Positions 3,389 to 38,785 of a DNA stretch of 64,000 bases are shown in pieces. The stretch is from Polaribacter vadi (GTDB lineage Bacteria; Bacteroidota; Bacteroidia; Flavobacteriales; Flavobacteriaceae). The stretch's first letter is position 1; every line of letters begins with the position of its first letter. The notes below the pieces were generated by a model that saw nothing but the letters and a program-made list of their open reading frames with translations, searched no databases and was not told the DNA's origin. The position numbers and the translations under genes were made by a program. Location: NCBI RefSeq assembly GCF_001761365.1, contig NZ_CP017477.1:1920501-1984500 (forward strand), written 5' to 3'.

Positions 3389-3886
3389 TTATACCCATTG
3401 GCAAATAATACCACCCATAATTGCTAAGGTTGCAATCCAATAACCAGCATTAATAGCTACATATTTAAATGATTTCTTTTCAAATACTGCTATAATTCCA
3501 ATTATAGGTAAAATTAAAAAGAACCCAAATAATACTCCATGAAAAGCACCATGTTTAAAGGTTCTAAATCGATCACTGTAGGTTGCAACAAAGTTTTCGA
3601 AATAAGAATATGCTTCTCCTGTTTGTTCGCTAAAACCTGGCTCGCCAGCTAAAGTAGAATAAACACCCATTTGATGTATTACCATTGGCATTAAAGCAAA
3701 AGCAATTAAAAAACTCAATACATAACAAATAAGTAAAGTTTTTAACATATTAGTGCCTTTTAAGGATTCTTCTGTAAAACCCATTTGGTTCATCCATGCT
3801 TTACCAAATAATGGGCCATACCACACAAAGCCAATAATCATTGGCACAAGTGCCGCTAAAAAAAAGATGTAAAAATTCATTTCCAT
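3389..3886 (-). CDS. DUF1761 family integral membrane protein
   Basis: The 165-residue protein starts MEMNFYIFFLAALVPMIIGFVWYGPLFGKAW. This is the hallmark opening of DUF1761: a first helix ending in the WYGPLFGKAWM segment. About four membrane helices follow (residues 5-25, 48-70, 112-132 and 140-160). The function of the family is unknown. The gene stands alone between two convergent or divergent units. Its upstream 230 bases hold only AT-rich sequence and the terminator of the next gene. Confidence 0.8.
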   Translation of the reverse strand: MEMNFYIFFLAALVPMIIGFVWYGPLFGKAWMNQMGFTEESLKGTNMLKTLLICYVLSFLIAFALMPMVIHQMGVYSTLAGEPGFSEQTGEAYSYFENFVATYSDRFRTFKHGAFHGVLFGFFLILPIIGIIAVFEKKSFKYVAINAGYWIATLAIMGGIICQWV

Positions 3887-4034
3887 GATAAAAAAGTTTT
3901 TGGTTGAATACCAAATATAGCAAATTTGTTTTTAATTGATTATTAAATACTTATGACAAAATATAGACTTTTAATATCAACAAATAAAAATACCCAAAAC
4001 ATTATAATTTTTGATTTCTAAAATAAAATAGCAC

Positions 4035-4066
4035 AAAAAAGAGAGCTGATTTACATCAGCTCTCTT
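4035..4066 (-). terminator. Terminator of the giant T9SS protein gene
   Basis: A perfect 12-bp inverted repeat (AAGAGAGCTGAT, loop TTAC, ATCAGCTCTCTT) spans 4039-4066. Read on the minus strand, the hairpin is followed by TTTT. It lies about 60 bases downstream of the stop at 4125. Confidence 0.88.
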
Positions 4067-4124
4067 GGGATCAATAGTTTTAATTAATACCCCTAAAAAT
4101 TATTTAAACTATTGATATACTTTA

Positions 4125-17384: not shown

Positions 17385-20300
17385 ATGAAAAGACAATTAC
17401 TATTTATTTTAGTATGCTTATTTGTATTAAACTACACTTCAGCTGAAATTCCATTTAACGATTTTAACTTTGCACCAACAGATATAATATTATCTTCAGA
17501 AGCTATAAATGAGAACAAATCCTCAGGAACAACAGTAGGTACGTTATCATCTACAGATGCGGATTTTGGAGATACATTTACCTATACTTTAGTTGCTGGA
17601 ATAGGAGATGCAGACAATGCATCTTTTTCCATTTCAGGTTCAGACTTATTAAGTGCTGCAAGTTTTAATCATGAAATGAAAGATTCTTATTCTATAAGAG
17701 TTAGAACTACAGATGCTAATGGCTTATGGTACGAAGAAGAGTTTACCATTACAGTAAATGATATTAATGAAATACCTACAGACAGTGCGTTGACATCAAC
17801 AAATATAAATGAGAATGAATCTTCAGGAACTACAGTGGGTGCTTTATCAACTACAGATGTAGATGATGGAGATACGTTTACCTATACTTTGGTTGCTGGA
17901 ACAGGCGATACAAACAATGCATCTTTTTCCATTTTAGGTTCTGACTTATTAAGTGGAGCAAGTTTTAATCATGAAATTAAGGATTCTTATTCCATAAGAA
18001 TACAAACTACAGATGCAAATGGTTTATCTTATGCTCAAGGCTTTATCATTACAGTAAATGATGTTAACGAAATACCAACAGATATCGCATTATCATCAAC
18101 GGATATAAATGAGAATGAATCTTCAGGAACAACAGTAGGTACATTATCAACTACAGATGTAGATGATGGAGATACATCTACCTATACGTTAGTTGCTGGA
18201 GCAGGAGATACAAATAATGGATCTTTCTCTATTTCAGGTTCAAGCTTATTAAGTGGGGCAAGTTTTGATTATGAAATTAAAGATTCTTATTCCATAAGAA
18301 TAAGAACTACAGATGCTAATGGCTTATCGTATGATGAAACCTTTACCATTAATGTAAATGATGTTAATGATACACCAACAGATATGGTATTATCATTAAC
18401 AAATATTGATGAAAATGAAGCATCAGGAACAACAATAGGTGCTTTATCGACTACAGATGCAGACGCTGTGGATTCTTTTACATATACTTTGGTGACTGGA
18501 ACAGGAGATACAGATAATGGATCCTTTTCTATTTCAGGTTCAGATTTATTAAGTGCTGCTATTTTTGATTATGAAACTCAAGATTCTTATTCTATAAGAG
18601 TGAGAACTACAGATGATAATGGTTTATTTTATGAGGAAACCTTTACCATTACAGTAAATGACATAAATGAAATACCTACAGACAGTGCATTATCATCAAC
18701 AAATATAGATGAGAATGAATCTTCAGGAACAACAGTGGGTGCTTTATCAACTACAGATGTGGATGATGGAGATACATTTACCTATACCTTGGTTGCTGGA
18801 ACAGGAGGTACAGACAATGCATCTTTTTCCATTTCAGGTGCAGATTTATTGAGTATTCCTATTTTTGATCATGAAACGAAAGATTCTTACGCTATAAGAG
18901 TGAGAACTACAGATAATAATGGTTTATTTTATGAGAAAACCTTTACTATTACAGTAAATGATATTAATGAAACACCAACAGATAGTGCTTTGTCATCAAC
19001 AGATATTGATGAGAATGAAGCATCAGGAACAACAGTAGGTGCTTTATCAACAACGGATATAGATGATGGAGATACATTTACCTATACTTTAGTTGCTGGA
19101 ACAGGAGATACAAATAATGGATCTTTCTCTATTTCAGGTTCAAACTTATTAAGTGGAGCAAGTTTTAATCATGAAACGAAAGATTCCTATTCAGTAAGAG
19201 TACAAACTACAGATTCAAATGGTTTATCATATGCCCAAAGCTTTATCATTATAATAAATGATATTAATGAAACATCAACAGATATTGCATTATCATCATC
19301 AGATATAGATGAGAATGAAGCATCAGGAACAACAGTAGGCGATCTATCAACTACAGATGAAGATGATGGAGATACATTTACCTATACTTTAGTTGCTGGA
19401 ACAGGAGATACAAATAATGGATCTTTCTCTATTTCAGGTTCAAACTTATTAAGTGGAGCAAGTTTTAATCATGAAACGAAAGATTCTTATTCCATAAGAG
19501 TAAGATCTACAGATGTTAATGGCTTATGGTATGAAGAAGCATTTACCATTACAGTAAATAATGTTAATGAAACACCAGCAGATATGGTATTATCATCAAC
19601 AGATATAAATGAGAATGAATCTTCAGGAACTACAGTAGGTGCTTTATCAACTACAGATATAGATAATGGAGATACATTTACCTATACTTTGGTTGCTGGG
19701 ACAGGAGATACAGACAATGCATCTTTTTCTATTTCAAGTTCAAATTTATTGAGTGATGCTATTTTTGATCATGAAATTCAAGATTCTTATTCTATAAGAG
19801 TGAGAACTACAGATACTAATGGTTTATCATATGATGAAAGCTTTACCATTACAATAAATGACATTAATGAAACACCAACAGATATTATATTATCCTCAAC
19901 AGAAATAGATGATGATCAAGTTTCAGGAACAACAGTAGGTACTTTATCAACTGCAGATGTAGATGATGGTGATACTTTTACATATACTTTAGTATCTGGA
20001 ACTGGAGATACAGATAATGGATTATTTAACATTACAGCTAACGGTTTATTAAGTGCAACTGCTTTTGACTATAATGCGAAATCTACTTATTCAATTCGAG
20101 TAAGAACCACAGACAGTGGTATTTTAACTTTTGATAAAGAATTTACGATTACAATAAACGATAAAACTTCTCCTGTTATTTCAAATGTCAGAATGTCTAC
20201 AAGTAATACTAATGTAGCATTTGCCAAAGTTGGAGACGTAATTACCTTAAGTTTTGATTCGGATGAAACAATAAATGCACCAACAGTATTTATTGCTAGT

Positions 20301-23300
20301 GAGCCTGCAAGCGTTTCAAATCCTTCAGGAAATAGTTGGATAGCTACATTAACGGTTGGGCTGGCTTCAATAGAAGGGCTTGCTGCTTTTAATATTTCAA
20401 ATATATCAGATGATGATAACAATGCAGCTTTAGATGTTGCTATATTATCTTCTGGTAATGCTATTGAAATAGATAGAACAGCACCAACAGGATATGGAGT
20501 TTCAAGTGTTTTAGATCCTGTAAATATAGATAACCAAACAGCATTTACTTTTAATATTACAGGTTTAGAAAATACATCTACTTATAATTGGACAGTTACA
20601 GATGTTAACAACGCTTCAGTATCAGGTAATGGCTCAACAAATGGAGCTAATCCAATTTCTATTAGCACAAATGTTTCAAGTTTAGCTGATGGTGCACTTA
20701 CAGTTACAGTATCTTCAACAGATGCTGCTGGGAATTTAGGATTGAATGAGACAGGAAATTCAGATAAAAATACAGTAAGGCCAGTAATCACTTTATTAGG
20801 TGATAATCCACAGATAATAGATGTAAATACAGTTTATGTAGAATTAGGAGCTACAGCAAATGATGATATAGATGGTGATATAACTGGAACAATAAATATT
20901 AATTCAAGTGCTATAAACTTAACGGTTGTGGGTTGTTATCCAATAATATATACTGTACTAGATTCTCATGGTAATTCAGGACAAGAAACAAGAATTGTAT
21001 TTGTATTAGATCCTGGAAAACCCTGGGCAAAAAATGATTCATATACTGTAAATGAAAACAGTCAAAACAATATGCTTGCTATTATAGGGAATGATAGTTA
21101 TGGAACAAATGGTCCAAATCCAAATCACCCAATAGCAATATCAGGAGCTTATACTGATAATGGAGCTAAGATTGATTTAGTAGGTAATCAAATTCAGTAT
21201 ACTCCAAGAACAAACTTTACAGGAGTTGATTCATTTAGTTATACAATTACAGATGATAATGGAAATGGTAGTGGAGATGGAGCTTCAGCGACAGTAACTG
21301 TAACAGTAACAGCAGCCACTGTAAATATTTCAGCAGTAGCAGATACAGCAAATGCAGTTCAAGGAAGTAATGATGTAGTTGTTATCGATGTTTTAGCTAA
21401 TGATACTTATGGTTCAGCAGCAGCACATGCAACTGAGTCATTAACATTACCTTCATTAACAAGTACACAAGGCGCAACTTTATCAGTAGTAAATGGAACT
21501 ATTGGTTATGTAGCGTCAGCACTTTTTGCAGGACCAACAGACACCTTTAATTATACAATTAAAGATGTAAACAATGTAACGTCAACGGCTACAGTAACAG
21601 TAACAATAGGCGCAGCAGATTCAGTAAATGGAGTTCCTTCAGCTAAATCAGATTCATTCTCAGTAGTTCAAAATACGATGACATCCTTAGCTATTTTGGC
21701 AAACAATGGATCAGGAGTAGATACTTATGGTACAGATGGAGCCCATCCAACAGGAGCATTAACTTTTATCAATGGAACAACTTCATCTAAGAGTGTTAAG
21801 CAAATAGAAAGTGGAAATGTTGCAAACAATATTATTGTTAATGGAACTGAGATAGAATATACACCAGTAACAGGATTTACAGGATCAGATAGTTTTTATT
21901 ACATGATTACTGATGGTAGTGGAGATACTTCAATAGCTCAAGTTATGATCACAGTAACAGAGGTAGCATCACCAACCGCAAATGATGATGCAGCAACTGT
22001 AGCTGCAGGAACTTTAGTAGCAAAAACGATTGATGTATTAGCAAATGATAGTTTTGGATCAGATGGTCCAGGAGTTACACCATTAGCAATTACCAATGTA
22101 AATGGAAGTACATCTACACTAAATATAGTTGATAGTAAAGTAACTTATATTCCAGATGCAGCATTAGTAGATGGAGACACAGAGACTATTGAATACACCA
22201 TAACTGATGGTAGTGGAGATACTACAACAGCAGAAATCACAATCACTATAGGAGCTGGAACAAGCACAAACGATACACCAACTGCAAAAGATGATGCAGT
22301 AACAGTAGCACAGAATAGTATGGATAATGTGATTAGTATTTTATTAAATAATGGAAATGGAGCAGATGATTATGGAATAGATTTAGCAAATGCAAATCAT
22401 CCAATATCATTATCAGCATTTTTCACGGATAATGGAGGTGAATTAGAATTAGTTGGAGAAACTGTATTGTATACGCCAAGAACAAACTTTACAGGAGTAG
22501 ATACCTTTGGCTATATAATTACTGATGGCAGTGGAGATGGAGCTTCAGCGACAGTAACTGTAACAGTAACAGCAGCCACTGTAAATATTTCAGCAGTAGC
22601 AGATACAGCAAATGCAGTTCAAGGAAGTAATGATGTAGTTGTTATCGATGTTTTAGCTAATGATACTTATGGTTCAGCAGCAGCACATGCAACTGAGTCA
22701 TTAACATTACCTTCATTAACAAGTACACAAGGCGCAACTTTATCAGTAGTAAATGGAACTATTGGTTATGTAGCGTCAGCACTTTTTGCAGGACCAACAG
22801 ACACCTTTAATTATACAATTAAAGATGTAAACAATGTAACGTCAACGGCTACAGTAACAGTAACAATAGGCGCAGCAGATTCAGTAAATGGAGTTCCTTC
22901 AGCTAAATCAGATTCATTCTCAGTAGTTCAAAATACGATGACATCCTTAGCTATTTTGGCAAACAATGGATCAGGAGTAGATACTTATGGTACAGATGGA
23001 GCCCATCCAACAGGAGCATTAACTTTTATCAATGGAACAACTTCATCTAAGAGTGTTAAGCAAATAGAAAGTGGAAATGTTGCAAACAATATTATTGTTA
23101 ATGGAACTGAGATAGAATATACACCAGTAACAGGATTTACAGGATCAGATAGTTTTTATTACATGATTACTGATGGTAGTGGAGATACTTCAATAGCTCA
23201 AGTTATGATTACAGTAACAGAGGTAGCATCTCCAACCGCAAATGATGATGCAGCAACTGTAGCTGCAGGAACTTTAGTTACAACAACAATTGATGTACTG

Positions 23301-25382
23301 GCAAATGATAGTTTCGGATCAGATGGTCCAGGAGTTACTCCTTTAGCAATTACGAATGTAAACGGAAGTACCTCTACACTAAATATAGTTGATAGTAAAG
23401 TAACTTATATTCCAGATGCAACATTAGTAGATGGAGACACAGAGACTATTGAATATACCATAACTGATGGAAGTGGAGATACTACAACAGCAGAAATCAC
23501 AATCACTATAGGAGCTGGAACAAGCACAAACGATACACCAACTGCAAAAGATGATGCAGTAACAGTAGCACAGAATAGTATCGATAATGTGATTAGTATT
23601 TTATTAAATAATGGAAATGGAGCTGATGATTATGGAATAGATTTAGCAAATGCAAATCATCCAATATCATTATCAGCATTTTTCACGGATAATGGAGGTG
23701 AATTAGAATTAGTTGGAGAAACTGTATTGTATACGCCAAGAACAAACTTTACAGGAGTAGATACCTTTGGTTATATAATTACTGATGGCAGTGGAGATGG
23801 AGCTTCAGCGACAGTAACTGTAACAGTAACAGCAGCCACTGTAAATATTTCAGCAGTAGCAGATACAGCAAATGCAGTTCAAGGAAGTAATGATGTCGTT
23901 GTTATCGATGTTTTAGCTAATGATACTTATGGTTCAGCAGCAGCACATGCAACTGAGTCGTTAACATTGCCTTCATTAACAAGTACACAAGGCGCAACTT
24001 TATCAGTAGTAAATGGAACTATTGGTTATGTAGCGTCAGCACTTTTTGCAGGACCAACAGACACCTTTGATTATACAATTAAAGATGTAAACAATGTAAC
24101 GTCAACGGCTACAGTAACAGTAACAATAGGCGCAGCAGATTCAGTAAATGGAGTTCCTTCAGCTAAATCAGATTCATTCTCAGTAGTTCAAAATACGATG
24201 ACATCCTTAGCTATTTTGGCAAACAATGGATCTGGGGTAGATACTTATGGTACAGATGGAGCGCATCCAACAGGAGCATTAACTTTTATCAATGGAACAA
24301 CTTCATCTAAGAGTGTTAAGCAAATAGAAAGTGGAAATGCTGCAAACAATATTATTGTTAATGGAACTGAGATAGAATATACACCAGTAACAGGATTTAC
24401 AGGATCAGATAGTTTTTATTACATGATTACTGATGGTAGTGGAGACACTTCAATAGCTCAAGTTATGATCACAGTAACAGAGGTAGCATCACCAACCGCA
24501 AATGATGATGCAGCAACTGTAGCTGCAGGAACTTTAGTAGCAAAAACGATTGATGTATTGGCTAATGATAGTTTTGGATCAGATGGTCCTGGAGTTACAC
24601 CATTAGCAATTACGAATGTAAATGGAAGTACATCTACACTAAATATAGTTGATAGTAAAGTAACTTATATTCCAGATGCTGCATTAGTAGATGGAGACAC
24701 AGAGACTATTGAATATACCATAACTGATGGTAGTGGAGATACTACAACAGCAGAAATCACAATCACCATAGGAGCTGGAACAAATACTAACGATACGCCA
24801 ACTGCAAAAGATGATGCAGTAACAGTTCTTAGAAACAGTACAAACAATGATATCTTTATCTTATTGGATAATGGAAATGGAGCAGATGATTATGGAGCAG
24901 ATTTAGCAAATCCAAATCATCCAATATCACCATTACCTGGAGCAACAGATATAGGAGGAACATTAGTATTAGATGGTAACAAAGTAGTTTATACACCAAA
25001 ATTAAACTTTACAGGAGTAGATACTTTTAACTATACGATTACAGATGGAAATGGAGATTCAGATACAGCAACTGTAACTATAACTGTTGCAGTAGCTAAA
25101 AACTCAACAGATGACTTTAATAGTTCTCAAATTAAAGAATTACAAGTATCACCAAATCCAACAAGTGGGAACATAAATGTAAGACTATATTGTGCTAAAG
25201 CAGCACAAGCAACTATAGTACTATTTGATTTAACAGGTAAAGTAGTTTATAAAAGTAAACAAGATCTTACAGAAGGAAATAATACATTGAACTTCGATGT
25301 AATTTCTAAATCAGGTATTTTATTATTAAAAGTATACACTGATAAAACAAATTTTGGAACTAAAAAGATAATTTTTAAATAA
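17385..25382 (+). CDS. Giant cadherin/Ig-like repeat protein with T9SS sorting domain
   Basis: This 2,665-residue protein has a signal peptide (1-20, ending TSAE). Nine cadherin-like repeats of exactly 100 residues follow (about 27-927), each with (P)TDxxLSSTxIxENxxSGT, DxDDGDTFTYTLVxGTGD and TITVNDxNE. The acidic DxDDGD and NDxNE positions are typical calcium ligands. Next come Ig-like segments (930-1130) and a DUF5011-like domain (about 1132-1210, TLLGDNPQ...VYVELGATANDDIDGDI). Then come thirteen VCBS/Ig-like modules of about 105 residues with IDVLANDxxG and GxDxFxYxITDGSGD motifs. Most of these form three near-identical 420-residue blocks. The T9SS type A sorting domain is at the end (about 2588-2665, VSPNPTSGNI to KKIIFK). 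I infer a long, calcium-stiffened surface adhesin. Confidence 0.9.
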   Translation: MKRQLLFILVCLFVLNYTSAEIPFNDFNFAPTDIILSSEAINENKSSGTTVGTLSSTDADFGDTFTYTLVAGIGDADNASFSISGSDLLSAASFNHEMKDSYSIRVRTTDANGLWYEEEFTITVNDINEIPTDSALTSTNINENESSGTTVGALSTTDVDDGDTFTYTLVAGTGDTNNASFSILGSDLLSGASFNHEIKDSYSIRIQTTDANGLSYAQGFIITVNDVNEIPTDIALSSTDINENESSGTTVGTLSTTDVDDGDTSTYTLVAGAGDTNNGSFSISGSSLLSGASFDYEIKDSYSIRIRTTDANGLSYDETFTINVNDVNDTPTDMVLSLTNIDENEASGTTIGALSTTDADAVDSFTYTLVTGTGDTDNGSFSISGSDLLSAAIFDYETQDSYSIRVRTTDDNGLFYEETFTITVNDINEIPTDSALSSTNIDENESSGTTVGALSTTDVDDGDTFTYTLVAGTGGTDNASFSISGADLLSIPIFDHETKDSYAIRVRTTDNNGLFYEKTFTITVNDINETPTDSALSSTDIDENEASGTTVGALSTTDIDDGDTFTYTLVAGTGDTNNGSFSISGSNLLSGASFNHETKDSYSVRVQTTDSNGLSYAQSFIIIINDINETSTDIALSSSDIDENEASGTTVGDLSTTDEDDGDTFTYTLVAGTGDTNNGSFSISGSNLLSGASFNHETKDSYSIRVRSTDVNGLWYEEAFTITVNNVNETPADMVLSSTDINENESSGTTVGALSTTDIDNGDTFTYTLVAGTGDTDNASFSISSSNLLSDAIFDHEIQDSYSIRVRTTDTNGLSYDESFTITINDINETPTDIILSSTEIDDDQVSGTTVGTLSTADVDDGDTFTYTLVSGTGDTDNGLFNITANGLLSATAFDYNAKSTYSIRVRTTDSGILTFDKEFTITINDKTSPVISNVRMSTSNTNVAFAKVGDVITLSFDSDETINAPTVFIASEPASVSNPSGNSWIATLTVGLASIEGLAAFNISNISDDDNNAALDVAILSSGNAIEIDRTAPTGYGVSSVLDPVNIDNQTAFTFNITGLENTSTYNWTVTDVNNASVSGNGSTNGANPISISTNVSSLADGALTVTVSSTDAAGNLGLNETGNSDKNTVRPVITLLGDNPQIIDVNTVYVELGATANDDIDGDITGTININSSAINLTVVGCYPIIYTVLDSHGNSGQETRIVFVLDPGKPWAKNDSYTVNENSQNNMLAIIGNDSYGTNGPNPNHPIAISGAYTDNGAKIDLVGNQIQYTPRTNFTGVDSFSYTITDDNGNGSGDGASATVTVTVTAATVNISAVADTANAVQGSNDVVVIDVLANDTYGSAAAHATESLTLPSLTSTQGATLSVVNGTIGYVASALFAGPTDTFNYTIKDVNNVTSTATVTVTIGAADSVNGVPSAKSDSFSVVQNTMTSLAILANNGSGVDTYGTDGAHPTGALTFINGTTSSKSVKQIESGNVANNIIVNGTEIEYTPVTGFTGSDSFYYMITDGSGDTSIAQVMITVTEVASPTANDDAATVAAGTLVAKTIDVLANDSFGSDGPGVTPLAITNVNGSTSTLNIVDSKVTYIPDAALVDGDTETIEYTITDGSGDTTTAEITITIGAGTSTNDTPTAKDDAVTVAQNSMDNVISILLNNGNGADDYGIDLANANHPISLSAFFTDNGGELELVGETVLYTPRTNFTGVDTFGYIITDGSGDGASATVTVTVTAATVNISAVADTANAVQGSNDVVVIDVLANDTYGSAAAHATESLTLPSLTSTQGATLSVVNGTIGYVASALFAGPTDTFNYTIKDVNNVTSTATVTVTIGAADSVNGVPSAKSDSFSVVQNTMTSLAILANNGSGVDTYGTDGAHPTGALTFINGTTSSKSVKQIESGNVANNIIVNGTEIEYTPVTGFTGSDSFYYMITDGSGDTSIAQVMITVTEVASPTANDDAATVAAGTLVTTTIDVLANDSFGSDGPGVTPLAITNVNGSTSTLNIVDSKVTYIPDATLVDGDTETIEYTITDGSGDTTTAEITITIGAGTSTNDTPTAKDDAVTVAQNSIDNVISILLNNGNGADDYGIDLANANHPISLSAFFTDNGGELELVGETVLYTPRTNFTGVDTFGYIITDGSGDGASATVTVTVTAATVNISAVADTANAVQGSNDVVVIDVLANDTYGSAAAHATESLTLPSLTSTQGATLSVVNGTIGYVASALFAGPTDTFDYTIKDVNNVTSTATVTVTIGAADSVNGVPSAKSDSFSVVQNTMTSLAILANNGSGVDTYGTDGAHPTGALTFINGTTSSKSVKQIESGNAANNIIVNGTEIEYTPVTGFTGSDSFYYMITDGSGDTSIAQVMITVTEVASPTANDDAATVAAGTLVAKTIDVLANDSFGSDGPGVTPLAITNVNGSTSTLNIVDSKVTYIPDAALVDGDTETIEYTITDGSGDTTTAEITITIGAGTNTNDTPTAKDDAVTVLRNSTNNDIFILLDNGNGADDYGADLANPNHPISPLPGATDIGGTLVLDGNKVVYTPKLNFTGVDTFNYTITDGNGDSDTATVTITVAVAKNSTDDFNSSQIKELQVSPNPTSGNINVRLYCAKAAQATIVLFDLTGKVVYKSKQDLTEGNNTLNFDVISKSGILLLKVYTDKTNFGTKKIIFK
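17464..20163 (+). repeat. Nine 300-bp repeats encoding cadherin-like domains
   Basis: The period is exactly 300 bases. The ACCAACAGAT-type junction recurs near 17471, 17771, 18071, 18371, 18671, 18971, 19271, 19571 and 19871. Units differ by scattered substitutions with no insertions. The ninth is the most diverged (IDDDQVSGT instead of INENESSGT). Confidence 0.93.
21274..24835 (+). repeat. Three near-identical 1,260-bp repeats encoding four Ig-like modules each
   Basis: Unit boundaries recur every 1,260 bases (21274, 22534, 23794). The third unit diverges after about 24835. Units one and two appear identical by eye over about 670 bases (21274-21948 against 22534-23208), and unit three differs at only a few sites there. 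Each unit encodes four modules of about 105 residues, in the same order. Confidence 0.95.
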
Positions 25383-29172: not shown

Positions 29173-29369
29173 ATAAGAACGCTCGTAGATTTTTTATCTT
29201 ATATATATTGATTAATTTTTTTTCAGATTTATCACTAATTTTAAAAAAAATAAAATAGAAAATATCACATATCATATTGAAAACTGTACTTAGTCTTCGA
29301 ATATTGAAAAAAAAGCTCTTTTTGAGCAATAATTAAATATATTTGTGAATGAAACTTCAAACAAAAGAA

Positions 29370-31316
29370 ATGAAAAAAATACTTTACGCATTTGTAATTT
29401 TCTCTTTAGTTTTTTCAGGATGTACGAGTCCAAAAACAGAAGAAGAAGAAATGAACGATACTCCTACTGCTGTTGATGATTCTTCTTCAACAAACGAAAA
29501 TACGGCTGTTAATATTAATGTTTTAGCAAATGATAGTTTTGGTAATGATGGCCCTAATACTGGCTCAATTTCTACACTTTCTACAACTACAATAAATGGA
29601 GCTAGCATAGCTGTAAATAATGCAGGAACTCCAAATGACCCAACAGATGACACTATAGATTACAATCCTGAAACTAATTTTAACGGAGCAGATACTTTTG
29701 ATTATAGGATTACTGATAGTAATGGAGATACTTCTTCTGCTACTGTGAGTGTAAATGTTATTCCTCCAACAGGACCAGCATTAGGAACTGTTTTTAACGA
29801 TGGAACGTTAAAATACACAATAACAAGTGCAAGTAATAATGAAGTTTCTGTAGAAAAAAATACAGACGATGGTCCTTCAGGTGCATTAGAGATCCCAGAG
29901 ACTATTAATCAATTTGATATAAATTACAGTGTTACAAGTATTGTAGACGAAGGTTTTGCTTATACTTATAACATTACCAGTGTTACGATTCCAAACAGCG
30001 TAAGAAGTGTAGGTAATTTAGCTTTTTACGATTCTCAAGCAATTACGAGTGTAAATATTGCAGATTCTGTTACAGAAATTGGGCATGATGCTTTTGGTAG
30101 ATGTATCAGTTTATCTACTATTAACATTCCTGCTGGAACATCTCATTTATCAGATGGTCTTTTTGCTAGTAATCGAAGTTTAGCAAATATTACAATTCCA
30201 AGCAATATTACAAGTATAGGAAACAGTGTTTTTTATGATTGTAGCAGTTTAAATAATGTTACAATTCCTAGCAGTGTTGTAAATGCTAATATGGGAACAT
30301 CTGTTTTTGGTTTGTGCGCTAGTTTAACAAATATTACTTTTCCTAATACCTTTACAACAATTCCTAATGAAACGTTTTATGCTTGTAATAGTTTAGAAAA
30401 CTTTACAATTCCAAATAACATCACTACAATAGGTTCATCAGCATTTTATGAATGTAGTGTATTAAAGGAAATTAATATACCTGCAACTGTTTCTTCTATT
30501 GGAGAATCTGCTTTTGGTGCTTGTATCAACTTAACCAAAGCTGTTATCCCTAATAATATTACAAGTTTACCAAACAATCTTTTTTATGAGTGCTCATCAC
30601 TTAAAGAAGTTAATATTCCAAATGGAGTAACTAGCATTGGAAGTAGTATTTTTTATGCGTGTGCTACTCTAGAAGACATTGTTTTACCTAACAGCATTAC
30701 AAGTATTGGAAATAGTGCATTTGGTAATTGCCCTCAATTGAAAAATTTTGATTTACCAACTAATTTAACAACTATAGCTGCAACTACTTTTTTTAACTGT
30801 AGTAGCTTAACTGAAATTAATATTCCAAGCAGCGTAACAAGTATAGAGAATGGAGCTTTTGCAGGTTGTAATAGTATTAGTCAAATAACAATTCCTGAAG
30901 GTGTAACTTCTATTCCTAATATTGCATTTTACAATTGTAGCAGTTTAACGAAAGTTAACTTTCCAAGCACTTTAACTACAATAGGAGAAACTGCTTTTGG
31001 TAATTGCTTTAGCTTAACTACTTTCGATATTCCTAACACTATCACAAGTATTCCAAAACAAGCTTTTTTTCAATGTACTAGTTTAACAACTATAAATATT
31101 CCTAATACTATTACAAGTATTGGCGAACAAGCTTTTTATAATTGTAATGGTTTAAAAAACATGAATATTAATGTACCAACTCCAATAACTATCAATGCAA
31201 ATGTTTTTGAATTTGTTGCAACAAATGGTATCGATTTAAAAGTACCTTCTAGTTCAGTAAATACATATAAAAATGCTGATATATGGAAAGGGTTTAGCTC
31301 AATAACAGCGCTTTAA
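29370..31316 (+). CDS. BspA-like leucine-rich-repeat lipoprotein with N-terminal Ig/VCBS-like module
   Basis: I start at the second in-frame ATG (29370), because MKKILYAFVIFSLVFSGC is then a compact lipoprotein signal with the lipidated Cys at residue 18. The ATG at 29349 would add seven residues. After an acidic linker comes one Ig/VCBS-like module (VDDSSSTNENTAVNINVLAND...GADTFDYRITDSNGDTSS), of the same family as the modules in the giant gene at 17385. The rest, from about residue 140, is some eighteen BspA/TpLRR repeats of about 23 residues (pattern SIPSSVTSIGxxAFxxCxSLxxI). Such proteins sit on the outer membrane surface and in some species bind host or matrix proteins. There is no T9SS sorting domain, so outer-membrane lipoprotein export is expected. 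Confidence 0.85.
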   Translation: MKKILYAFVIFSLVFSGCTSPKTEEEEMNDTPTAVDDSSSTNENTAVNINVLANDSFGNDGPNTGSISTLSTTTINGASIAVNNAGTPNDPTDDTIDYNPETNFNGADTFDYRITDSNGDTSSATVSVNVIPPTGPALGTVFNDGTLKYTITSASNNEVSVEKNTDDGPSGALEIPETINQFDINYSVTSIVDEGFAYTYNITSVTIPNSVRSVGNLAFYDSQAITSVNIADSVTEIGHDAFGRCISLSTINIPAGTSHLSDGLFASNRSLANITIPSNITSIGNSVFYDCSSLNNVTIPSSVVNANMGTSVFGLCASLTNITFPNTFTTIPNETFYACNSLENFTIPNNITTIGSSAFYECSVLKEINIPATVSSIGESAFGACINLTKAVIPNNITSLPNNLFYECSSLKEVNIPNGVTSIGSSIFYACATLEDIVLPNSITSIGNSAFGNCPQLKNFDLPTNLTTIAATTFFNCSSLTEINIPSSVTSIENGAFAGCNSISQITIPEGVTSIPNIAFYNCSSLTKVNFPSTLTTIGETAFGNCFSLTTFDIPNTITSIPKQAFFQCTSLTTINIPNTITSIGEQAFYNCNGLKNMNINVPTPITINANVFEFVATNGIDLKVPSSSVNTYKNADIWKGFSSITAL

Positions 31317-31342: not shown

Positions 31343-31376
31343 AAAACAGTTTAACTAAAGTTAAACTGTTTTTTTG
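31343..31376 (+). terminator. Terminator after the BspA-like gene
   Basis: A perfect 14-bp stem AAAACAGTTTAACT / AGTTAAACTGTTTT is separated by only two bases (so the real loop is larger) and followed by a T-run. It lies 26 bases after the stop. Confidence 0.88.
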
Positions 31377-31597: not shown

Positions 31598-33121
31598 ATG
31601 ATGAACTCATTAAAGCTAGGTGCTATTTTTAAATCACTTAAAAATAGTAGTTTATGTCTTTTTATGTTTTTTTATATGGTTGCTCTTTCTCAAAATCAAC
31701 CGAATAAAACGACCACAACAAACTACACTACCTCAACAGAAATTACTGAAGACGAATTATTTAAAACAACAAAAGAATTTGTTGCATCAAAAGAATTCAA
31801 TAAAGCACTTTTAATTTTATCGAAAAATTACGATCGTTTTTCTGAAAGTTTAAATATTAATTGGTTGTATGCACACGTTTTATCTTTAAATAATGATAAA
31901 ATTAAAGCTGAAGCCAAATTTAAAAAAGCAATTTCTCTTTCTCCTGATAACAAAAATTTACAAAAAGATTACGCTAGGTTTTTGTACGAAAACGGAAAAT
32001 TAAATGAAGTTGAAGTTATCTTATCAAAATATATTGCAGAAGATTCAAAAGACGTTGAGTTTTTATTAATGCAAGCAAATATTAGCTTTTGGAATAGTGA
32101 TGTAAAAACGGCGAGAGAAAATGTCGCTAAGATTAAAGAAATATATCCAGAAACAAATCTTACAGACAATTTATCAAGCCAAATAAAAGAATTAACTGCT
32201 TTTTATGTGAAGGCTAATTTTGAATATCAAACAGATTCACAACCTTTAGAATATTTTGCACAACACATATCTCTAGAAAAATACATTTCTAAAGTTTTAA
32301 ATCCTAAGTTAGAAATTTCAAATTATAATTTTTCTCCACAATCAGAACAAGCTTTAATTGCCAAACTACATAACAAATTTCATTTTTATGATGTTGGTTT
32401 GAAAATAAACGTAACTGGTGGTGCTTATAAAAACTTTTCTGGTGAAACAGATTGGTTAGGTGGCATTCGATTTACACAACAGTTAAGCCAAGAAGCATCC
32501 CTAAATTTTGGGTATTCTAAAAATAGTTTATTAAGCACAACTGCGAGTACTACATTTAATTTAACAAATCAAAATGTATTTGGAGAGTTTGATTATAATC
32601 ATAAATATGTAGCTATTCATGCAGCTTATAATCAACAATTTTATGAAGATGATAACAATATAAAATTATTTGGAGCCTACATTGTATCACAACCTATTAA
32701 AGTTTACAAATTTAGCTTTCAGGCTGGTTATGGTTATAATTTTTCTGATGCTAAAAACATTTTATTTATTTATAATAATGAAGGTGTAGGAGTTTACGAT
32801 CCTTATTTTACTCCAAAAGAACAGGAAGTTCACTCTGCGCTTTTTATAACAAATTTTAAACCTACAAAAAATTTAACATTAAAAGCAAAGTTAAATTATG
32901 GTATACAAGCTTCTGTTAGCAACCCATACTCTAGTGAAGTAACTCCAGGTAATTTTGAAATAGGAGGTTTTTACGATGAAACTTTTTCTTATACAGATAT
33001 TGAAGGTTCGATTAATTATGCTGTTTCCAACAATTTAGGAATTAATGTAATGTACACTTTTCAAGAAACGTTTTTTTATGACAGAAATAATATTAATTTA
33101 GGATTGAATTATAGATTTTAA
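31598..33121 (+). CDS. TPR plus YaiO-like outer-membrane beta-barrel protein (polysaccharide export)
   Basis: The 507-residue protein has a signal peptide (hydrophobic 17-30, ending ALSQ). Three to four TPR-like helical pairs follow (about 50-205: LLILSKNYDRFSESL, WLYAHVLSLNNDKIKAEAKF, LQKDYARFLYENGKLNEAE-type). The C-terminal part is about 290 residues of alternating strands rich in aromatic residues, ending NINLGLNYRF; a terminal Phe is typical of outer-membrane barrels. The TPR-then-barrel order matches PgaA and BcsC, which export polysaccharide. It overlaps the GT2 synthase start by one base (TAATG), indicating translational coupling. A -7-like box TATATTTG at 31539-31546 and a CCCCC patch at 31566-31570 precede the gene. 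Confidence 0.8.
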   Translation: MMNSLKLGAIFKSLKNSSLCLFMFFYMVALSQNQPNKTTTTNYTTSTEITEDELFKTTKEFVASKEFNKALLILSKNYDRFSESLNINWLYAHVLSLNNDKIKAEAKFKKAISLSPDNKNLQKDYARFLYENGKLNEVEVILSKYIAEDSKDVEFLLMQANISFWNSDVKTARENVAKIKEIYPETNLTDNLSSQIKELTAFYVKANFEYQTDSQPLEYFAQHISLEKYISKVLNPKLEISNYNFSPQSEQALIAKLHNKFHFYDVGLKINVTGGAYKNFSGETDWLGGIRFTQQLSQEASLNFGYSKNSLLSTTASTTFNLTNQNVFGEFDYNHKYVAIHAAYNQQFYEDDNNIKLFGAYIVSQPIKVYKFSFQAGYGYNFSDAKNILFIYNNEGVGVYDPYFTPKEQEVHSALFITNFKPTKNLTLKAKLNYGIQASVSNPYSSEVTPGNFEIGGFYDETFSYTDIEGSINYAVSNNLGINVMYTFQETFFYDRNNINLGLNYRF

Positions 33122-34731
33122 TGAATTCAAAACTACGAAACGATTTATTTAAATTTAAAGAAGCTAAAAAAGTTACTGGCTTTGATAGGGCTATTTTTTT
33201 AGGCTTAACATTTGCAGGACTATTAAGCATGTTTAATTTAATTGAATGGTGGTTTAGAGGCGAACATATTTCCAATCTTTTTCTTTTTGTAATATTAAGT
33301 CTCTTTTTTTTATACGGAATTATTAGAGTTGCATTAATTTGGATAAATTATTTACGTATTCAAAAACCTAAAGAAGTTCCTGTTCCAGAAAAAAATTTAA
33401 GTGTCGCTGTTTTTACAACATCTGCTCCTGGAGAACCTTTATCGATGTTTGAAAATACTTTTAAAGCGTTAAAAAACTTAAACTATCCACACACAACTTA
33501 TTTATTAGATAGTACAGAAGATATCGCTTTTAAAGAATTAGCAGAAGAACATGATGTTGTTTGGTTAAATTTAGCAAATTTACCTGGAGCAAAAGCAGGT
33601 AAAATAAACGAAACGCTAAAAAGGACAAAAGAAGAATTCATCTTAATACTAGATCCTGATCATATTGTTTTTCCAAATTTTTTAGATCAAACATTAGGGT
33701 TTTTCCAAGACGAAAAAGTTGGTTTTGTACAAGTAAGTCAAGGGTATTATAACATGTATCGTTCTTTTACAGCCAAAGGTGCTGCAGAACAAACGTACAC
33801 CTTTTATGGACCAACTCAAATGGGTTTAAATGGCTATGGAAGTGCAGTTGCCATAGGTGCAAATTGTACTTTTAGAAGAAAAGCCCTAGAGAGTATTGGA
33901 GGTCATGCTCAAGGTTTAGCAGAAGATTTACAAACATCTTTAAGAATCCATGCAAAAGGTTGGCAATCTATTTATAATCCTGTAATTGTAAGTCGTGGCT
34001 TAGTACCCGAAGATTTTACATCATTTTGTAAACAACAATTAAAATGGGCAAGAGGTGTTTTTGAGTTATTGTTTGATGAAATTCCATCAACTTTAAAAAA
34101 CCTTACTTTTTGGCAAAAATTATCTTATTTATCAATAGGAACTTATTACATATTTGGGCCTATAACTGCTTTCTTTATTTTTGTTCCGTTATTATTTTTT
34201 ACAACAAAAATAAGTCCTGCAAGTATGGATTTTACCGAGTTTATTGTACTTGGAACACCAATACTACTAATTTCTATTTTAATTTATGGGTATGCTCAAA
34301 AATTTTTGTGTGATCAAAAAACAGAAAGAGGAATCCACTGGAGAGGTATGGTGTTAAAATATTCTTGCTGGCCTGTATTTACTTATGCATTCTACTTAAC
34401 CTTAATTAATAAAAAAATTCCTTATATTCCCACAGCCAAAATAGCTGTAAAAGGATTTATGAATCCTTTTGTAAAGCCATTAATATTATATTGTGTTCTA
34501 TTTTTATTGATGATGATTGGCTTATATATAGAAAGAAGATATTACATACCTGAAAGCGAATTAATTCTTACAGCTCAAAAAACTTGGGCAATGATAGGTT
34601 TTGCTATGATTGCTTTCGTGCAATTTTTAGGTGGTATTGGAGCTGCTTTTAAATCTTTATATATCAAAGCAGAAAATGCTTGGAGTAAAATAATTGTATC
34701 CGCAGATAAAAAAATCAAAATAAAAGAGTAA
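33121..34731 (+). CDS. Cellulose-synthase-like family 2 glycosyltransferase (membrane polysaccharide synthase)
   Basis: The 536-residue inner-membrane enzyme has two N-terminal membrane helices (about 26-42 and 52-76), a cytosolic GT2 domain (about 92-330) and four or so C-terminal helices. Processive-synthase motifs are present: D130 in YLLDSTED, the DxD at D178-D180 (LDPDHIVF), the acceptor-site E268-D269 (LAEDLQTS), and Q305-x-x-K308-W309. This last motif has Lys in place of the usual Arg of QxxRW. I see no C-terminal PilZ domain for cyclic-di-GMP. The product is unknown; the neighbouring CDP-sugar genes and the GH26 enzyme suggest a heteropolysaccharide with a deoxysugar and a beta-mannan- or glucan-like backbone (inference). 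Confidence 0.87.
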   Translation: MNSKLRNDLFKFKEAKKVTGFDRAIFLGLTFAGLLSMFNLIEWWFRGEHISNLFLFVILSLFFLYGIIRVALIWINYLRIQKPKEVPVPEKNLSVAVFTTSAPGEPLSMFENTFKALKNLNYPHTTYLLDSTEDIAFKELAEEHDVVWLNLANLPGAKAGKINETLKRTKEEFILILDPDHIVFPNFLDQTLGFFQDEKVGFVQVSQGYYNMYRSFTAKGAAEQTYTFYGPTQMGLNGYGSAVAIGANCTFRRKALESIGGHAQGLAEDLQTSLRIHAKGWQSIYNPVIVSRGLVPEDFTSFCKQQLKWARGVFELLFDEIPSTLKNLTFWQKLSYLSIGTYYIFGPITAFFIFVPLLFFTTKISPASMDFTEFIVLGTPILLISILIYGYAQKFLCDQKTERGIHWRGMVLKYSCWPVFTYAFYLTLINKKIPYIPTAKIAVKGFMNPFVKPLILYCVLFLLMMIGLYIERRYYIPESELILTAQKTWAMIGFAMIAFVQFLGGIGAAFKSLYIKAENAWSKIIVSADKKIKIKE

Positions 34732-34754
34732 CTAACTAACAAATATCAAAAAAC

Positions 34755-35525
34755 ATGAAAGTAGTAATTTTAGCAGGTGGGTTTGGTACCAGATTAAGTG
34801 AGGAAACAGCCTCTATTCCAAAACCTATGGTAAAAATTGGTGATAAACCAATTATTTGGCACATCATGAAACATTACTCTAGTTATGGTTTTAATGATTT
34901 TGTAATATTAGGAGGTTATAAATCTTATGTTATCAAAGAATATTTTGCAAATTACTACTTACATCAATCTGATGTTGAGTTTGATATGACAAATAATACA
35001 ATGACAACCTTAGATTCTAAAACAGAAGACTGGAAAGTAACAGTTTTAGACACAGGTTTACATACAATGACTGGTGGAAGAATTAAAAGAGCTGCCAAAT
35101 ATTTAGATGAACCATTTATGCTAACCTATGGAGATGGTGTGAGTAACGTAAATATTGGGAAACTTGTAGATTTTCATAAAAGTCATTCTCAAAAAGTAAC
35201 CATGACTTGTGTTCAACCAGAAGGTAGATTTGGTGCTGTAGATATAAATGTTGAAAGTAATGTTATTAACAGCTTTATGGAAAAACCTAAAGGAGATGGA
35301 GCTTGGATTAATGGAGGTTTCTTTGTTTGTGATCCTATCGTTTTCGATTACCTTGAAAATGATGCTACAATATTTGAAAGAAGCCCTTTAGAAAACATTG
35401 CTAACGACAAACTTTTAGCGGCCTATAAACACACAGGTTTTTGGAAACCTATGGATACTTTAAGGGACAAAAATGAGTTAGAGTCTAAATGGGCAGACAA
35501 TAAAGCTCCTTGGAAAACATGGTGA
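34755..35525 (+). CDS. rfbF: Glucose-1-phosphate cytidylyltransferase
   Basis: The 256-residue nucleotidyltransferase opens MKVVILAGGFGTRLSEET, the signature of RfbF. The later blocks IPKPMVKIGDKPIIWHIMKHY and VQPEGRFGAVD are also characteristic of the CTP-specific family, and EKPKGDGAWINGGFFV and WKPMDTLRD agree. It makes CDP-glucose from CTP and glucose 1-phosphate, the entry to CDP-3,6-dideoxyhexoses. The length is standard. It overlaps rfbG by seven bases (ATGGTGA), so the two steps are coupled. Confidence 0.95.
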   Translation: MKVVILAGGFGTRLSEETASIPKPMVKIGDKPIIWHIMKHYSSYGFNDFVILGGYKSYVIKEYFANYYLHQSDVEFDMTNNTMTTLDSKTEDWKVTVLDTGLHTMTGGRIKRAAKYLDEPFMLTYGDGVSNVNIGKLVDFHKSHSQKVTMTCVQPEGRFGAVDINVESNVINSFMEKPKGDGAWINGGFFVCDPIVFDYLENDATIFERSPLENIANDKLLAAYKHTGFWKPMDTLRDKNELESKWADNKAPWKTW

Positions 35526-36625
35526 ATTTCGAATCCCTTTTTGAAGGAGTTTATAAAGACAAAAAAGTTCTTTTAACTGGTCATACAGGTTTTAAAGGCC
35601 CTTGGCTAGCACTTTGGTTAGAACAAATGGGTGCTAAGGTTTATGGATTTTCGTTAAAAAATGAAGATGATATTAATCATTTAAGTTTATTAAATCTTGG
35701 GCTAGAAGAAAAGATAAGCGACATTAGAAATGCTGATGTTTTAGAGAAATATTTTCAAGAAGTTCAGCCAGATATTGTATTTCATTTAGCAGCACAAGCT
35801 TTAGTAAGAAGATCTTATGATGATCCTGTAGAAACATTTTCTACAAACGTAATGGGAACTTTAAATATTTTTGAAGCTTGCAGAAAAACACCTTCTGTAA
35901 AAGCTATTGTAAATGTTACCACAGATAAATGTTACGAAAATAAGGAATGGGAATGGGGTTATAGAGAAAATGAGCCAATGGGTGGTTATGATCCTTATAG
36001 CGCTTCTAAAGGATGTTCAGAATTACTAACATCATCTTATAGAAACTCTTATTTTAATCCTAAAGATTTTGGTAATAAACACGAAGTATTATTAGCAAGC
36101 GGACGTGCTGGAAACGTAATTGGTGGAGGTGATTGGGCTGTAGATAGACTAATTCCAGATATCATAAAAGCAACTGCAAAAAATGAAGCTGTTTTAATTA
36201 GAAACCCTTTAGCAACAAGACCTTGGCAACATGTTTTAGAACCCTTAAGTGGTTATTTAACGTTAGGTTGGAAATTACTTAAAAAAGATGTTTCTGCTGC
36301 TGAAGGTTGGAATTTCGGTCCTGATAATAACAGCAACTTACAAGTAGGAGATATTGTAAAATTATCTCATGAATATTGGAGTAATATCCAAATTGAAATC
36401 AGTAAAAATACAGATGAGCATCATGAAGCAAATTTATTGATGTTAGATTGCTCAAAAGCTAATAAAAAATTAAAGTGGAAAGCTGTTTGGGGAATTGATA
36501 AAACGATTGACAAAACAATCACTTGGTACAAAGAATATTACGAAAACAATAAAATTTTGTCTCATGCTGATTTAGAGGAATATATATCAGATGCAAAGGC
36601 AGCAAATATTCTATGGGCATTATAA
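35519..36625 (+). CDS. rfbG: CDP-glucose 4,6-dehydratase
   Basis: This short-chain extended dehydratase has an NAD-binding glycine motif (TGHTGFKGPW near residue 20), VNVTTDKCYEN, and the catalytic YxxxK within YDPYSASKG. The blocks RAGNVIGGGDW and RPWQHVLEPL are typical of RfbG. It converts CDP-glucose to CDP-4-keto-6-deoxyglucose. I start at the ATG at 35519, inside the rfbF stop (ATGGTGA); an in-frame TTG at 35510 would add three residues. The 3' end overlaps the next gene by 13 bases. It is the second step of the CDP-sugar branch of this locus. Confidence 0.95.
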   Translation: MVNFESLFEGVYKDKKVLLTGHTGFKGPWLALWLEQMGAKVYGFSLKNEDDINHLSLLNLGLEEKISDIRNADVLEKYFQEVQPDIVFHLAAQALVRRSYDDPVETFSTNVMGTLNIFEACRKTPSVKAIVNVTTDKCYENKEWEWGYRENEPMGGYDPYSASKGCSELLTSSYRNSYFNPKDFGNKHEVLLASGRAGNVIGGGDWAVDRLIPDIIKATAKNEAVLIRNPLATRPWQHVLEPLSGYLTLGWKLLKKDVSAAEGWNFGPDNNSNLQVGDIVKLSHEYWSNIQIEISKNTDEHHEANLLMLDCSKANKKLKWKAVWGIDKTIDKTITWYKEYYENNKILSHADLEEYISDAKAANILWAL

Positions 36626-37518
36626 ATTTAAAAGATAAGAAAGTTTTAGTTATTGGCGGAAATGGATATTTAGGGAGTTTTTTAGTAAAAGCCTTAAAAG
36701 AACAAGAAGCTGATGTTTTTATAATTTCTAGAAATTGTGAAGCATCAAACTCTCAATTTATAGTTGATATTACTAATTTTGAGGAAACTAATACCATCAT
36801 CCAAAAAATAAAACCAGATATTGTTTACCATTTAGCAGCTAATATTAGCAGAAATAGAGATTTTTCTATCTACGAAAATATGGCAGCTGTAAATGTGCAA
36901 GGAACCTTAAATATTTTAAAATCTTTAGAAGGCATAGATGCGCATTTTATCTTTACATCTTCTAGTGAAATTTATGGTAATAATGAATCTCCTTTTCAAG
37001 AAAATCAAATTCCTAAACCAGTATCACCCTACTCTTTAAGTAAAATTAATGCAGAAATGTTAATTCAAACTTACTGTACTAATCATCAGGAAAAATTTAC
37101 GAATTTAAGAATTTTTAATTTTTATGGAGAGCATATGCCTGAAGAATTTTTTATTCCTCAGATGATAAATTCACTTAAAAAAGGAGAAGATTTTTTAATG
37201 ACAAAAGGAGAACAAGTCAGAGATTTTTTATATGTTAGTGATGTTGTAAGTGCATTAATTTTATCGGCACAAAACACAAATGCTTATGGAGAAACCATGA
37301 ATGTTTGTAGTGGTAAAGGAACAAAATTAAGTACTTTAGCAGCTGCTGTAAACAACAGTATGAAAACCAAAGCTAAAATTATGTTGGGAGCAATACCTTA
37401 CAGAGATAATGAAGTTTGGGAAATGATAGGAGACAATTCAAAAATTAAAAATAAGATTGGTTTCAAACCTGCTATTAGTATAGAAAAAGGCATAGAAATC
37501 GTTATAAACAAATCATAA
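36613..37518 (+). CDS. NAD-dependent epimerase/dehydratase, probable CDP-deoxysugar reductase or epimerase
   Basis: The 301-residue extended SDR has the GGNGYLGSF nucleotide motif at 15-23. It also has the FTSSSEIYG block, the catalytic YSLSK (Tyr-x-x-x-Lys), LRIFNFYG, and QVRDFLYVSDVV. Because it follows rfbF and rfbG in the same transcript, it most likely reduces or epimerises CDP-4-keto-6-deoxyglucose, as CDP-abequose or CDP-paratose synthases do. No RfbH-type (PLP/iron-sulfur) 3-deoxygenase is seen in the window, so a simple 6-deoxy product is as likely as a 3,6-dideoxy one. The specificity is inference. Confidence 0.75.
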   Translation: MGIINLKDKKVLVIGGNGYLGSFLVKALKEQEADVFIISRNCEASNSQFIVDITNFEETNTIIQKIKPDIVYHLAANISRNRDFSIYENMAAVNVQGTLNILKSLEGIDAHFIFTSSSEIYGNNESPFQENQIPKPVSPYSLSKINAEMLIQTYCTNHQEKFTNLRIFNFYGEHMPEEFFIPQMINSLKKGEDFLMTKGEQVRDFLYVSDVVSALILSAQNTNAYGETMNVCSGKGTKLSTLAAAVNNSMKTKAKIMLGAIPYRDNEVWEMIGDNSKIKNKIGFKPAISIEKGIEIVINKS

Positions 37519-37520
37519 TT

Positions 37521-38705
37521 ATGGGATCATCCAAAAAAACTTTTAAAAGACTTTTTAACGTAATAATTGCTTTAGTTATTGGTTATTTTGTTATTTATGG
37601 TTTAGCAGCCATCAGCAAAAACTCTAAAGGACCTTTAGGAGGCCTTTTAGAAAACATGAGCGATATGGTTCAAGATTTTGAACGCGATAATATTCTAGAA
37701 AAGAGAGAACAAAATAGAGAGAAAAAATTAAGTTGGTTTAAAGATCAGCGAAAAAATAAATTTGCTTTACTAAAAACTAAATATATTCTTTTTGGTGCTT
37801 CTGATGATAGTAAAGGTGAATCTTACGAAAACATTATCAATTTAGAAGATTCTTTAGCGATAACATTTCCTATTATACATATTTATAAAGCTTGGGGAGA
37901 AGGCCAAGAATATAAGTTTCCTGAAAATGAAGTTAATGCTATTAATAGAATAGGTTCTATACCAATGATAACTTGGGAGCCTTGGTTTGGTAAATTTTCT
38001 CAAGAAAACTTCCCGAAAATTAAAGCTCCAGAGCAAAGAGATAATCATGGTTTAACAGCTGTTGCAGAAGGTCATTATGATAAATACATAAAAGAATGGG
38101 CAAAAGAAGCTGCAAAAGTTGGCTATCCTATTTATTTAAGAGTTGGTCATGAAATGAATGATCCATATCGTTATCCTTGGGGACCTCAAAATAATGATCC
38201 ATCAGAATATGTTGCTGCATTTAAACATGTTAGAGATGTTTTTGAAGAAGTTGGTGCTAAAAATATTATATGGGTTTGGAGCCCACATTTAACATACGGA
38301 AAATTTAATGAATATTACCCTGGAACCGATTATGTAGATGTTGTTGCAACAGGAGCTTTAAATTATGGTACAAGTACAAGCTGGAGTGATTGGTGGACTT
38401 TTGAGCAAATTTTTGGAAATTATTACGAGCAATTAGCTTCTTTTTATAAACCAATTATGATTGCCGAGTTTGGCTCTTTAAAACCTGGAGGAAGCAGAGC
38501 AAAATGGTTTGGAGATACTTTTGAAAATTTTTACACCAAATATCCTTATGTAACTTCTATTGTGTTTTTTCATTATTCAAGTGATCCTTCTACTACATAC
38601 AAAGCTGTAAGCTGGTATATAAAAGATGATCAAGAAGTAACAACTGCAATTAAGAATGAATTAAAAAAATGGGATCCAAGCATAAAGCAACCAGATATGC
38701 AATAA
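37521..38705 (+). CDS. Membrane-anchored GH26 glycoside hydrolase (beta-mannanase-like)
   Basis: The 394-residue protein has a single N-terminal membrane helix (about 13-31), a charged coiled linker (45-80) and a TIM-barrel domain. The GH26 catalytic residues are recognisable: the acid/base E211 in LRVGHEMND and the nucleophile E316 in MIAEFGS. The substrate-site tryptophans in WEPWFG and WVWSPH are present. Family members cut beta-1,4-mannan or beta-1,3-1,4-glucan or xylan. Placed two bases after the epimerase in a synthase operon, it probably trims or releases the polymer being made, as BcsZ (GH8) does for cellulose, rather than digesting food. It is the last gene of the operon; a terminator follows. 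Confidence 0.82.
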   Translation: MGSSKKTFKRLFNVIIALVIGYFVIYGLAAISKNSKGPLGGLLENMSDMVQDFERDNILEKREQNREKKLSWFKDQRKNKFALLKTKYILFGASDDSKGESYENIINLEDSLAITFPIIHIYKAWGEGQEYKFPENEVNAINRIGSIPMITWEPWFGKFSQENFPKIKAPEQRDNHGLTAVAEGHYDKYIKEWAKEAAKVGYPIYLRVGHEMNDPYRYPWGPQNNDPSEYVAAFKHVRDVFEEVGAKNIIWVWSPHLTYGKFNEYYPGTDYVDVVATGALNYGTSTSWSDWWTFEQIFGNYYEQLASFYKPIMIAEFGSLKPGGSRAKWFGDTFENFYTKYPYVTSIVFFHYSSDPSTTYKAVSWYIKDDQEVTTAIKNELKKWDPSIKQPDMQ

Positions 38706-38747
38706 CTTTTATTTATACATTTTTAAATAAAATCTTTTAACCAATAA

Positions 38748-38785
38748 AATAACGATAGTAATTTAAAATTACTATCGTTATTTTT
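38748..38785 (+). terminator. Terminator of the polysaccharide operon
   Basis: AATAACGATAGTAATT and its complement AATTACTATCGTTATT form a 16-bp stem with a very short spacer, followed by T residues. It lies about 45 bases after the GH26 stop. Confidence 0.88.

Follow-up and report, generated by a model that had tools for sequence, protein, structure and literature searches.

The six genes at positions 31598-38705 of the window (the whole stretch of 64,000 nucleotides of Polaribacter vadi DNA analysed here) are a conserved system, in which an exporter, a cellulose-synthase-like GT2 and a GH26 hydrolase accompany three genes of a CDP-sugar cassette. We regard it as an evenly balanced call that these genes form a complete synthase-dependent exopolysaccharide system in their own right, with a synthase that takes a CDP-activated 6-deoxyhexose as its donor. 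Rather more tentatively, we suggest that a cellulose-synthase-like GT2 may have switched more than once from a UDP- to a CDP-sugar donor, in this reading through acquisition of a CDP-6-deoxyhexose cassette of three genes within the synthase operon, and that the polymer may have a 6-deoxyhexose backbone. What stands out in the alignments and models is that columns 102 and 131 of the GT2, both apparently situated in the donor pocket, take the top two ranks of 527 in their agreement with the presence of the cassette.

In the list of open reading frames all six genes lie on one strand (+), with spacings of -1, 23, -7, -13 and 2 nt from exporter to GH26. They encode a TPR-barrel outer-membrane exporter (507 aa, 31598..33121), a BcsA-like processive GT2 synthase without PilZ (536 aa, 33121..34731), the glucose-1-phosphate cytidylyltransferase RfbF (34755..35525), the CDP-glucose 4,6-dehydratase RfbG (35519..36625 from an ATG, with an alternative longer TTG start at 35510), an SDR proposed to be a CDP-4-keto-6-deoxyglucose C4-reductase (36613..37518), and a GH26 hydrolase whose N-terminus, judged by eye, carries a hydrophobic anchor (37521..38705). 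The earlier note had described six tightly coupled genes, and its gene list is confirmed at these positions on one strand. Terminator-like hairpins on the plus strand, recognised by pattern only, stand before (31343..31372) and after (38746..38784) the operon; the region holds four such sites versus 2.7 (sd 1.9) in shuffles. Directly 5' of the operon (29349-31316) lies the gene of an LRR_5 (BspA-type) repeat protein, a relative of which likewise stands ahead of the operon in the related loci L031-L034 and L036. Elsewhere the window encodes a 2665-aa protein with cadherin-like tandem repeats and, by eye, a C-terminal secretion/sorting-like region (17385-25382), and a Flavo-1 sRNA (RF01705, 61521-61601 on the minus strand; 56.9 bits vs a gathering score of 42).

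The exporter is recognised from its open reading frame, its Pfam matches and a structural model with TPR helices and a beta-barrel, and its best PDB matches are BcsC, PelB and the secretin 4y25, which we take to be the PgaA barrel. Against the PgaA model it scores 18.8 bits, far under the cut-off of 366.65. The GT2, also modelled, matches PF13632 and PF13641 and has chains of the cellulose synthase BcsA as closest PDB relatives; it is 97% identical to the GT2 of Polaribacter sp. Hel_I_88. It reaches 167.4 bits against the BcsA equivalog TIGR03030 (cut-off 699.1) and 71.7 bits against the PgaC model TIGR03937 (cut-off 422.3), and the complete genome has no match to BcsB (PF03170) or PilZ (PF07238). 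A known cellulose synthase, one of the findings that would have refuted the earlier note, is rejected on the TIGR03030 score and the absence of these partners. The earlier note had seen no PilZ, BcsB or acetyltransferase gene; the genome bears this out for the first two, and the lack of an acetyltransferase is in line with the Pfam matches found for the six proteins.

With the Bcs systems the window shares a BcsA-like synthase, a BcsC-like TPR-barrel exporter and a glycanase in the operon. It differs from them in that BcsB and PilZ are missing, CDP-sugar genes lie inside the operon, the equivalent of BcsA Asp180 is replaced, and a GH26 enzyme stands in place of BcsZ, which belongs to GH8. The Pga systems are similar in having a TPR-barrel exporter beside a GT2, and 4y25 is among the best exporter fold matches, whereas the window's GT2 and exporter stay far under the PgaC and PgaA cut-offs and no deacetylase is found among the six genes. 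Judged from these comparisons the system is a variant of synthase-dependent export, which has scores below BcsA and PgaC level, no BcsB or PilZ, and a substitution of the uracil-contacting aspartate. The bacterial mixed-linkage, (1,3;1,4)-beta-glucan synthases RiGT2 of Romboutsia ilealis and BgsA of Sinorhizobium meliloti are, according to extracts of the work on RiGT2 (PMC10374906), processive GT2s that have no BcsB partner, a feature shared by the window's protein. RiGT2 has PilZ, a QRDRW motif and UDP-glucose as donor, whereas the window has QxxKW and a CDP-sugar cassette, and the main text on RiGT2 contains no occurrence of GH26 (PMC10374906).

The hydrolase passes the cut-off of PF02156 (42.9 vs 20.2 bits), and its best PDB relatives are chains of Endoglucanase H (E 5.8e-33), the best mannanase following at 2.6e-6. 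Glu211 and Glu316 align with Endoglucanase H, are kept in 72 of 72 rows, and are presumably the catalytic acid/base and nucleophile. A beta-mannan product is disfavoured by the nearer relationship to Endoglucanase H, with the reservation that sequence alone cannot fix GH26 specificity, and the mannan proposed in the earlier note thus finds no specific support. Other Flavobacteriaceae carry GT2 and GH26 domains in one open reading frame (L111, 946-4686, minus strand), and this natural fusion supports the view that GH26 acts on the product of the synthase. The fused protein has a related GT2 and GH26, but differs from the window in being a single protein, in having a GH2-like gene (PF02836) directly upstream, and in showing neither TPR-barrel nor cassette in the stretch of L111 that was read. 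Long GT2 open reading frames of 976-1285 aa were seen in 17 of the 20 GT2-bearing genomes of a draw of 299 from the family; the domain scan of such proteins covered L111 and L113, the latter being a long GT2 protein without a GH26 hit (3493-6405, plus strand). In two loci GH26 is split across two open frames, by frameshift or sequencing error (L058, 11598-12596; L074, 5721-6899).

A scan of the genome collection yielded 174 GT2 relatives, and the 80 best loci among them were retained for analysis. The core of exporter, GT2 and GH26 recurs across genera in these Bacteroidota-type loci, with the exporter counted in 75/80 and GH26 in 73/80. Most misses are contig ends; L069 and L072 show no exporter though upstream room exists, and the GH26 of L087 was removed by an overlap filter and is absent from the count. 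In 29 of the 80 loci (L064, at a contig end, on RfbF alone) GT2 and GH26 are separated by the cassette; it is not at this place in 46, and five are unclear. The full six-gene order can be followed in 24 of these 29, and contig ends interrupt the remaining five. Among the 46 loci labelled cassette-minus in the sequence comparison below, only 22 have at least 5 kb on both sides; in the others a more distant cassette is possible. This recurrence of gene order in 80 loci shows that the arrangement is not due to chance. The earlier note had proposed a synthase-dependent exporter whose hydrolase position is taken by GH26 and whose operon holds CDP-deoxysugar genes in its middle, and had suggested a search for co-occurrence of GT2, GH26, rfbFG and the TPR-barrel; the proposal is supported by conservation across genera, and the genes are linked in relatives, with all six in order in 24 of 80 loci. 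Among families seen in at least three loci, none other occurs in more than six of the 80, and none recurring beside the operon is a second glycosyltransferase. A decorated mannan or glucan, the other product envisaged by the earlier note, would need such an enzyme, and this part of the interpretation had to be changed.

In the cassette, RfbF and RfbG pass the cut-offs of TIGR02623 (390.1 vs 300.25 bits) and TIGR02622 (487.9 vs 278.45 bits). The SDR (PF01370) passes no NCBIfam cut-off among the 25 families listed out of 33; its best solved relative is 2pk3, a 4-hexulose reductase, and its relatives keep YxxxK in 30/30 and GxxGxxG in 29/30. By sequence we interpret it as a putative C4-reductase and would guess its product to be CDP-D-fucose or CDP-D-quinovose. 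The best match in the genome to NF011936, which we take to be RfbH, the 3-dehydrase of the CDP-3,6-dideoxyhexose pathway, is 150.3 bits, with a cut-off of 423. We have set aside a 3,6-dideoxyhexose product, since no RfbH over the cut-off is present in the genome, which makes a 6-deoxyhexose more likely. The same three activities (cytidylyltransferase, CDP-glucose 4,6-dehydratase and C4-reductase) lead to CDP-D-fucose in the HS:41 capsule of Campylobacter jejuni, as far as the extracts of that study show (PMC12369002). The HS:41 route differs in that epimerase and mutase steps follow and in that it feeds a capsule (PMC12369002).

The agreement between cassette and synthase sequence, an aspect absent from the earlier note, was examined in 78 rows, for which L087 and L101 were labelled by hand as cassette-minus and L098 and L103 as cassette-plus, their cassette being outside; in L103 it lies directly upstream and in L098 upstream on the other strand. 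Motif 130-131 of the GT2, aligned to BcsA D179-D180, is DD in 46/46 rows without the cassette and in 0/32 with it, where DS (26), DG (2), DN (2), SD (1) and TD (1) are found instead. At residue 102, cassette-bearing rows have Ala (28), Tyr (2) or Thr (2), and cassette-free rows have Ser (45) or Thr (1). Columns 102 and 131 agree with the cassette in 77 and 76 of the 78 rows; three contig-end loci outside these counts (L045, L052, L095) are all DS. In the window codon 102 (33424..33426, +) encodes Ala and codon 131 (33511..33513, +) Ser. We do not interpret the change of the DD motif as decay, because the catalytic residues D178, D180, D269, Q305 and W309 of the GT2 are each invariant in 81/81 rows.

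Exceptions to the main distribution of the cassette follow the same pattern. The genes flanking L034 are also those around L031 and L033, so that the cassette is missing at an orthologous place; L034 and L036, at the same genomic place as L031 and L033, have lost it and show DD with Ser102. L090 and L109, with a cassette between the same genes, have DN with Tyr102, and L098 and L103 have SD and TD with Thr102, the first Asp being broken there, not the second. In the GT2 tree a clade of 32 rows (SH-aLRT 100) has the cassette in all 30 scored rows except L034 and L036. L090/L109 and L098/L103 stand outside this clade, and presence of the cassette changes three times if these four are taken as one gain by parsimony. 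There are only three independent switches, and although all agree with the motif a sign test gives p = 0.25. The columns changed in the reversion (9) and in the independent gain (58) overlap in two of 527, namely 102 and 131, versus 0.99 expected (P = 0.26). Column 102 is altered in L098/L103 as well, and 0.09 columns would be expected to meet all three, a post hoc figure. With L098/L103 counted as cassette-plus, no column has fully disjoint states in GT2, GH26 or TPROM. Residue 282 of GH26 supports the association in part, being Phe in 22/29 rows with the cassette and 0/43 without, and Tyr in 43/43 without; the window itself has Tyr282, as in the cassette-minus group, despite its cassette.

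Of 120 GT2 protein hits whose gene context is not visible, 20 are DD, all with Ser102, and 97 combine DS or DG with Ala102; a single hit, which goes against the association, has DN together with Ser102, and two are unreadable at 102 by pattern. Three of the 20 GT2s from the family draw are free-standing, the window's own included. Draws from class and phylum, of 395 genomes each, both added a single new genome, identical in the two, and a draw from the order (321 genomes) gave six, including that one. The resulting loci L157-L162 are all six DD with GH26 directly after GT2, and test the cassette-minus side only; one of them repeats L110, with which L158 shares an exact stretch of 100 residues.

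In the model of the window's GT2, strand 1 is immediately followed by residue 102 and strand 2 by residue 131. BcsA D180 of the DD motif, with which residue 131 aligns, presumably contacts uracil, and the window has Ser131 in its place. In the available parts of a study of CesA8, the strand-1 STVDP motif forms a groove in which uridine lies, and one Asp of DDG, the motif that ends strand 2, is close enough to a uracil ring nitrogen for a hydrogen bond (PMC10592267). On chemical grounds a carboxylate should suit the N-H of uracil, not the bare N3 of cytosine, and with Ser, Asn or Gly the pocket could be compatible with cytosine or with both bases. As the nucleobase end of the pocket is changed whenever the cassette is present, and as the two most strongly associated columns fall there, we read the CDP-sugar as the synthase's own donor: the GT2 itself may take CDP-6-deoxyhexose. 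If so, its product would be a 6-deoxyhexose polymer or copolymer and not a side-decorated glucan.

Alternatively, the GT2 could use UDP-glucose to make a beta-glucan of cellulose-like or mixed-linkage type, with a CDP-6-deoxyhexose side group added by a glycosyltransferase encoded elsewhere. Such a division of labour is compatible with the relationship of the GT2 to cellulose synthases and of GH26 to endoglucanase H, with the retention of the same core in cassette-free relatives, and with three further GT2-type proteins over the PF13632 cut-off in the genome. We consider it unlikely, as it leaves the broken Asp-Asp in 32/32 cassette loci unexplained and as none of the gene families that recur beside the operon is a second glycosyltransferase. 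A true heteropolymer would result if one relaxed nucleotide pocket took UDP-glucose and CDP-6-deoxyhexose in alternation, for which the replacing Ser, Asn and Gly could provide room for uracil and cytosine by chemical inference. Hyaluronan synthase alternates two UDP-sugars at a single site, according to extracts of one study (PMC12987647), but reads one nucleobase, not two; alternation across two bases seems improbable to us, though the present data would fit a heteropolymer as well as a homopolymer.

The history of the cassette bears on a third explanation, by which the sugar genes share the operon only because they were inserted there and work for a different envelope glycan, the changes in the GT2 being ordinary lineage divergence. 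The small number of independent switches fits this scenario. A related RfbF-RfbG-SDR triplet occurs in another flavobacterial genome, within a cluster that looks Wzy-type (L147, 6230-8954), with an RfbG of 61% identity and flippase- and polymerase-like proteins, roles assigned by eye; triplets of this type are a possible source of the operon's cassette. In 29/80 loci the cassette nevertheless occupies one constant position, flanked by GT2 and GH26, and its loss in L034/L036 and gain in L090/L109 accompany the residue change, so that an unrelated function appears distinctly improbable. No flippase or polymerase gene (Wzx/Wzy) is found among the six genes, and no such family recurs near the 80 loci. 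Service to a distant O-antigen cluster, which the earlier note had considered, is rejected because the only rfbG over the TIGR02622 cut-off in the genome is the operon's own. In the RfbG tree L098/L103 stand apart, and L090/L109 nest among the main cassettes, so that their gain may represent a transfer of the same cassette. The RfbF of the window and of L031-L033 branches away from that of L035 while their RfbG and SDR group together; on this evidence RfbF has probably been replaced inside the cassette.

Returning to the reading we prefer, in which the synthase itself takes the CDP-sugar, RfbF would form CDP-glucose and RfbG CDP-4-keto-6-deoxyglucose, which the SDR would reduce at C4 to a CDP-6-deoxyhexose, CDP-D-fucose or CDP-D-quinovose. 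The BcsA-like GT2 in the inner membrane would polymerise the 6-deoxyhexose, alone or with UDP-glucose, and extrude the chain, which the anchored GH26 would trim in the periplasm and the TPR-barrel export. The donor switch, the SDR reaction, the polymer and its linkage are thus proposals, built on the gene content and order, folds, catalytic residues and cassette-motif association that we observed. To our knowledge, known processive GT2 polysaccharide synthases use UDP- or GDP-sugars, and among the literature matches listed none concerned a GH26-linked or CDP-using processive synthase.

If true, a cellulose-synthase fold would here have changed its donor in nature, with the switch traced to one or two residues. 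Naturally occurring pairs that differ in the cassette, such as the window type versus L034/L036, make the reading of the nucleobase by processive synthases directly testable. The system would likewise define a 6-deoxyhexose exopolysaccharide in Bacteroidota, including marine Polaribacter.
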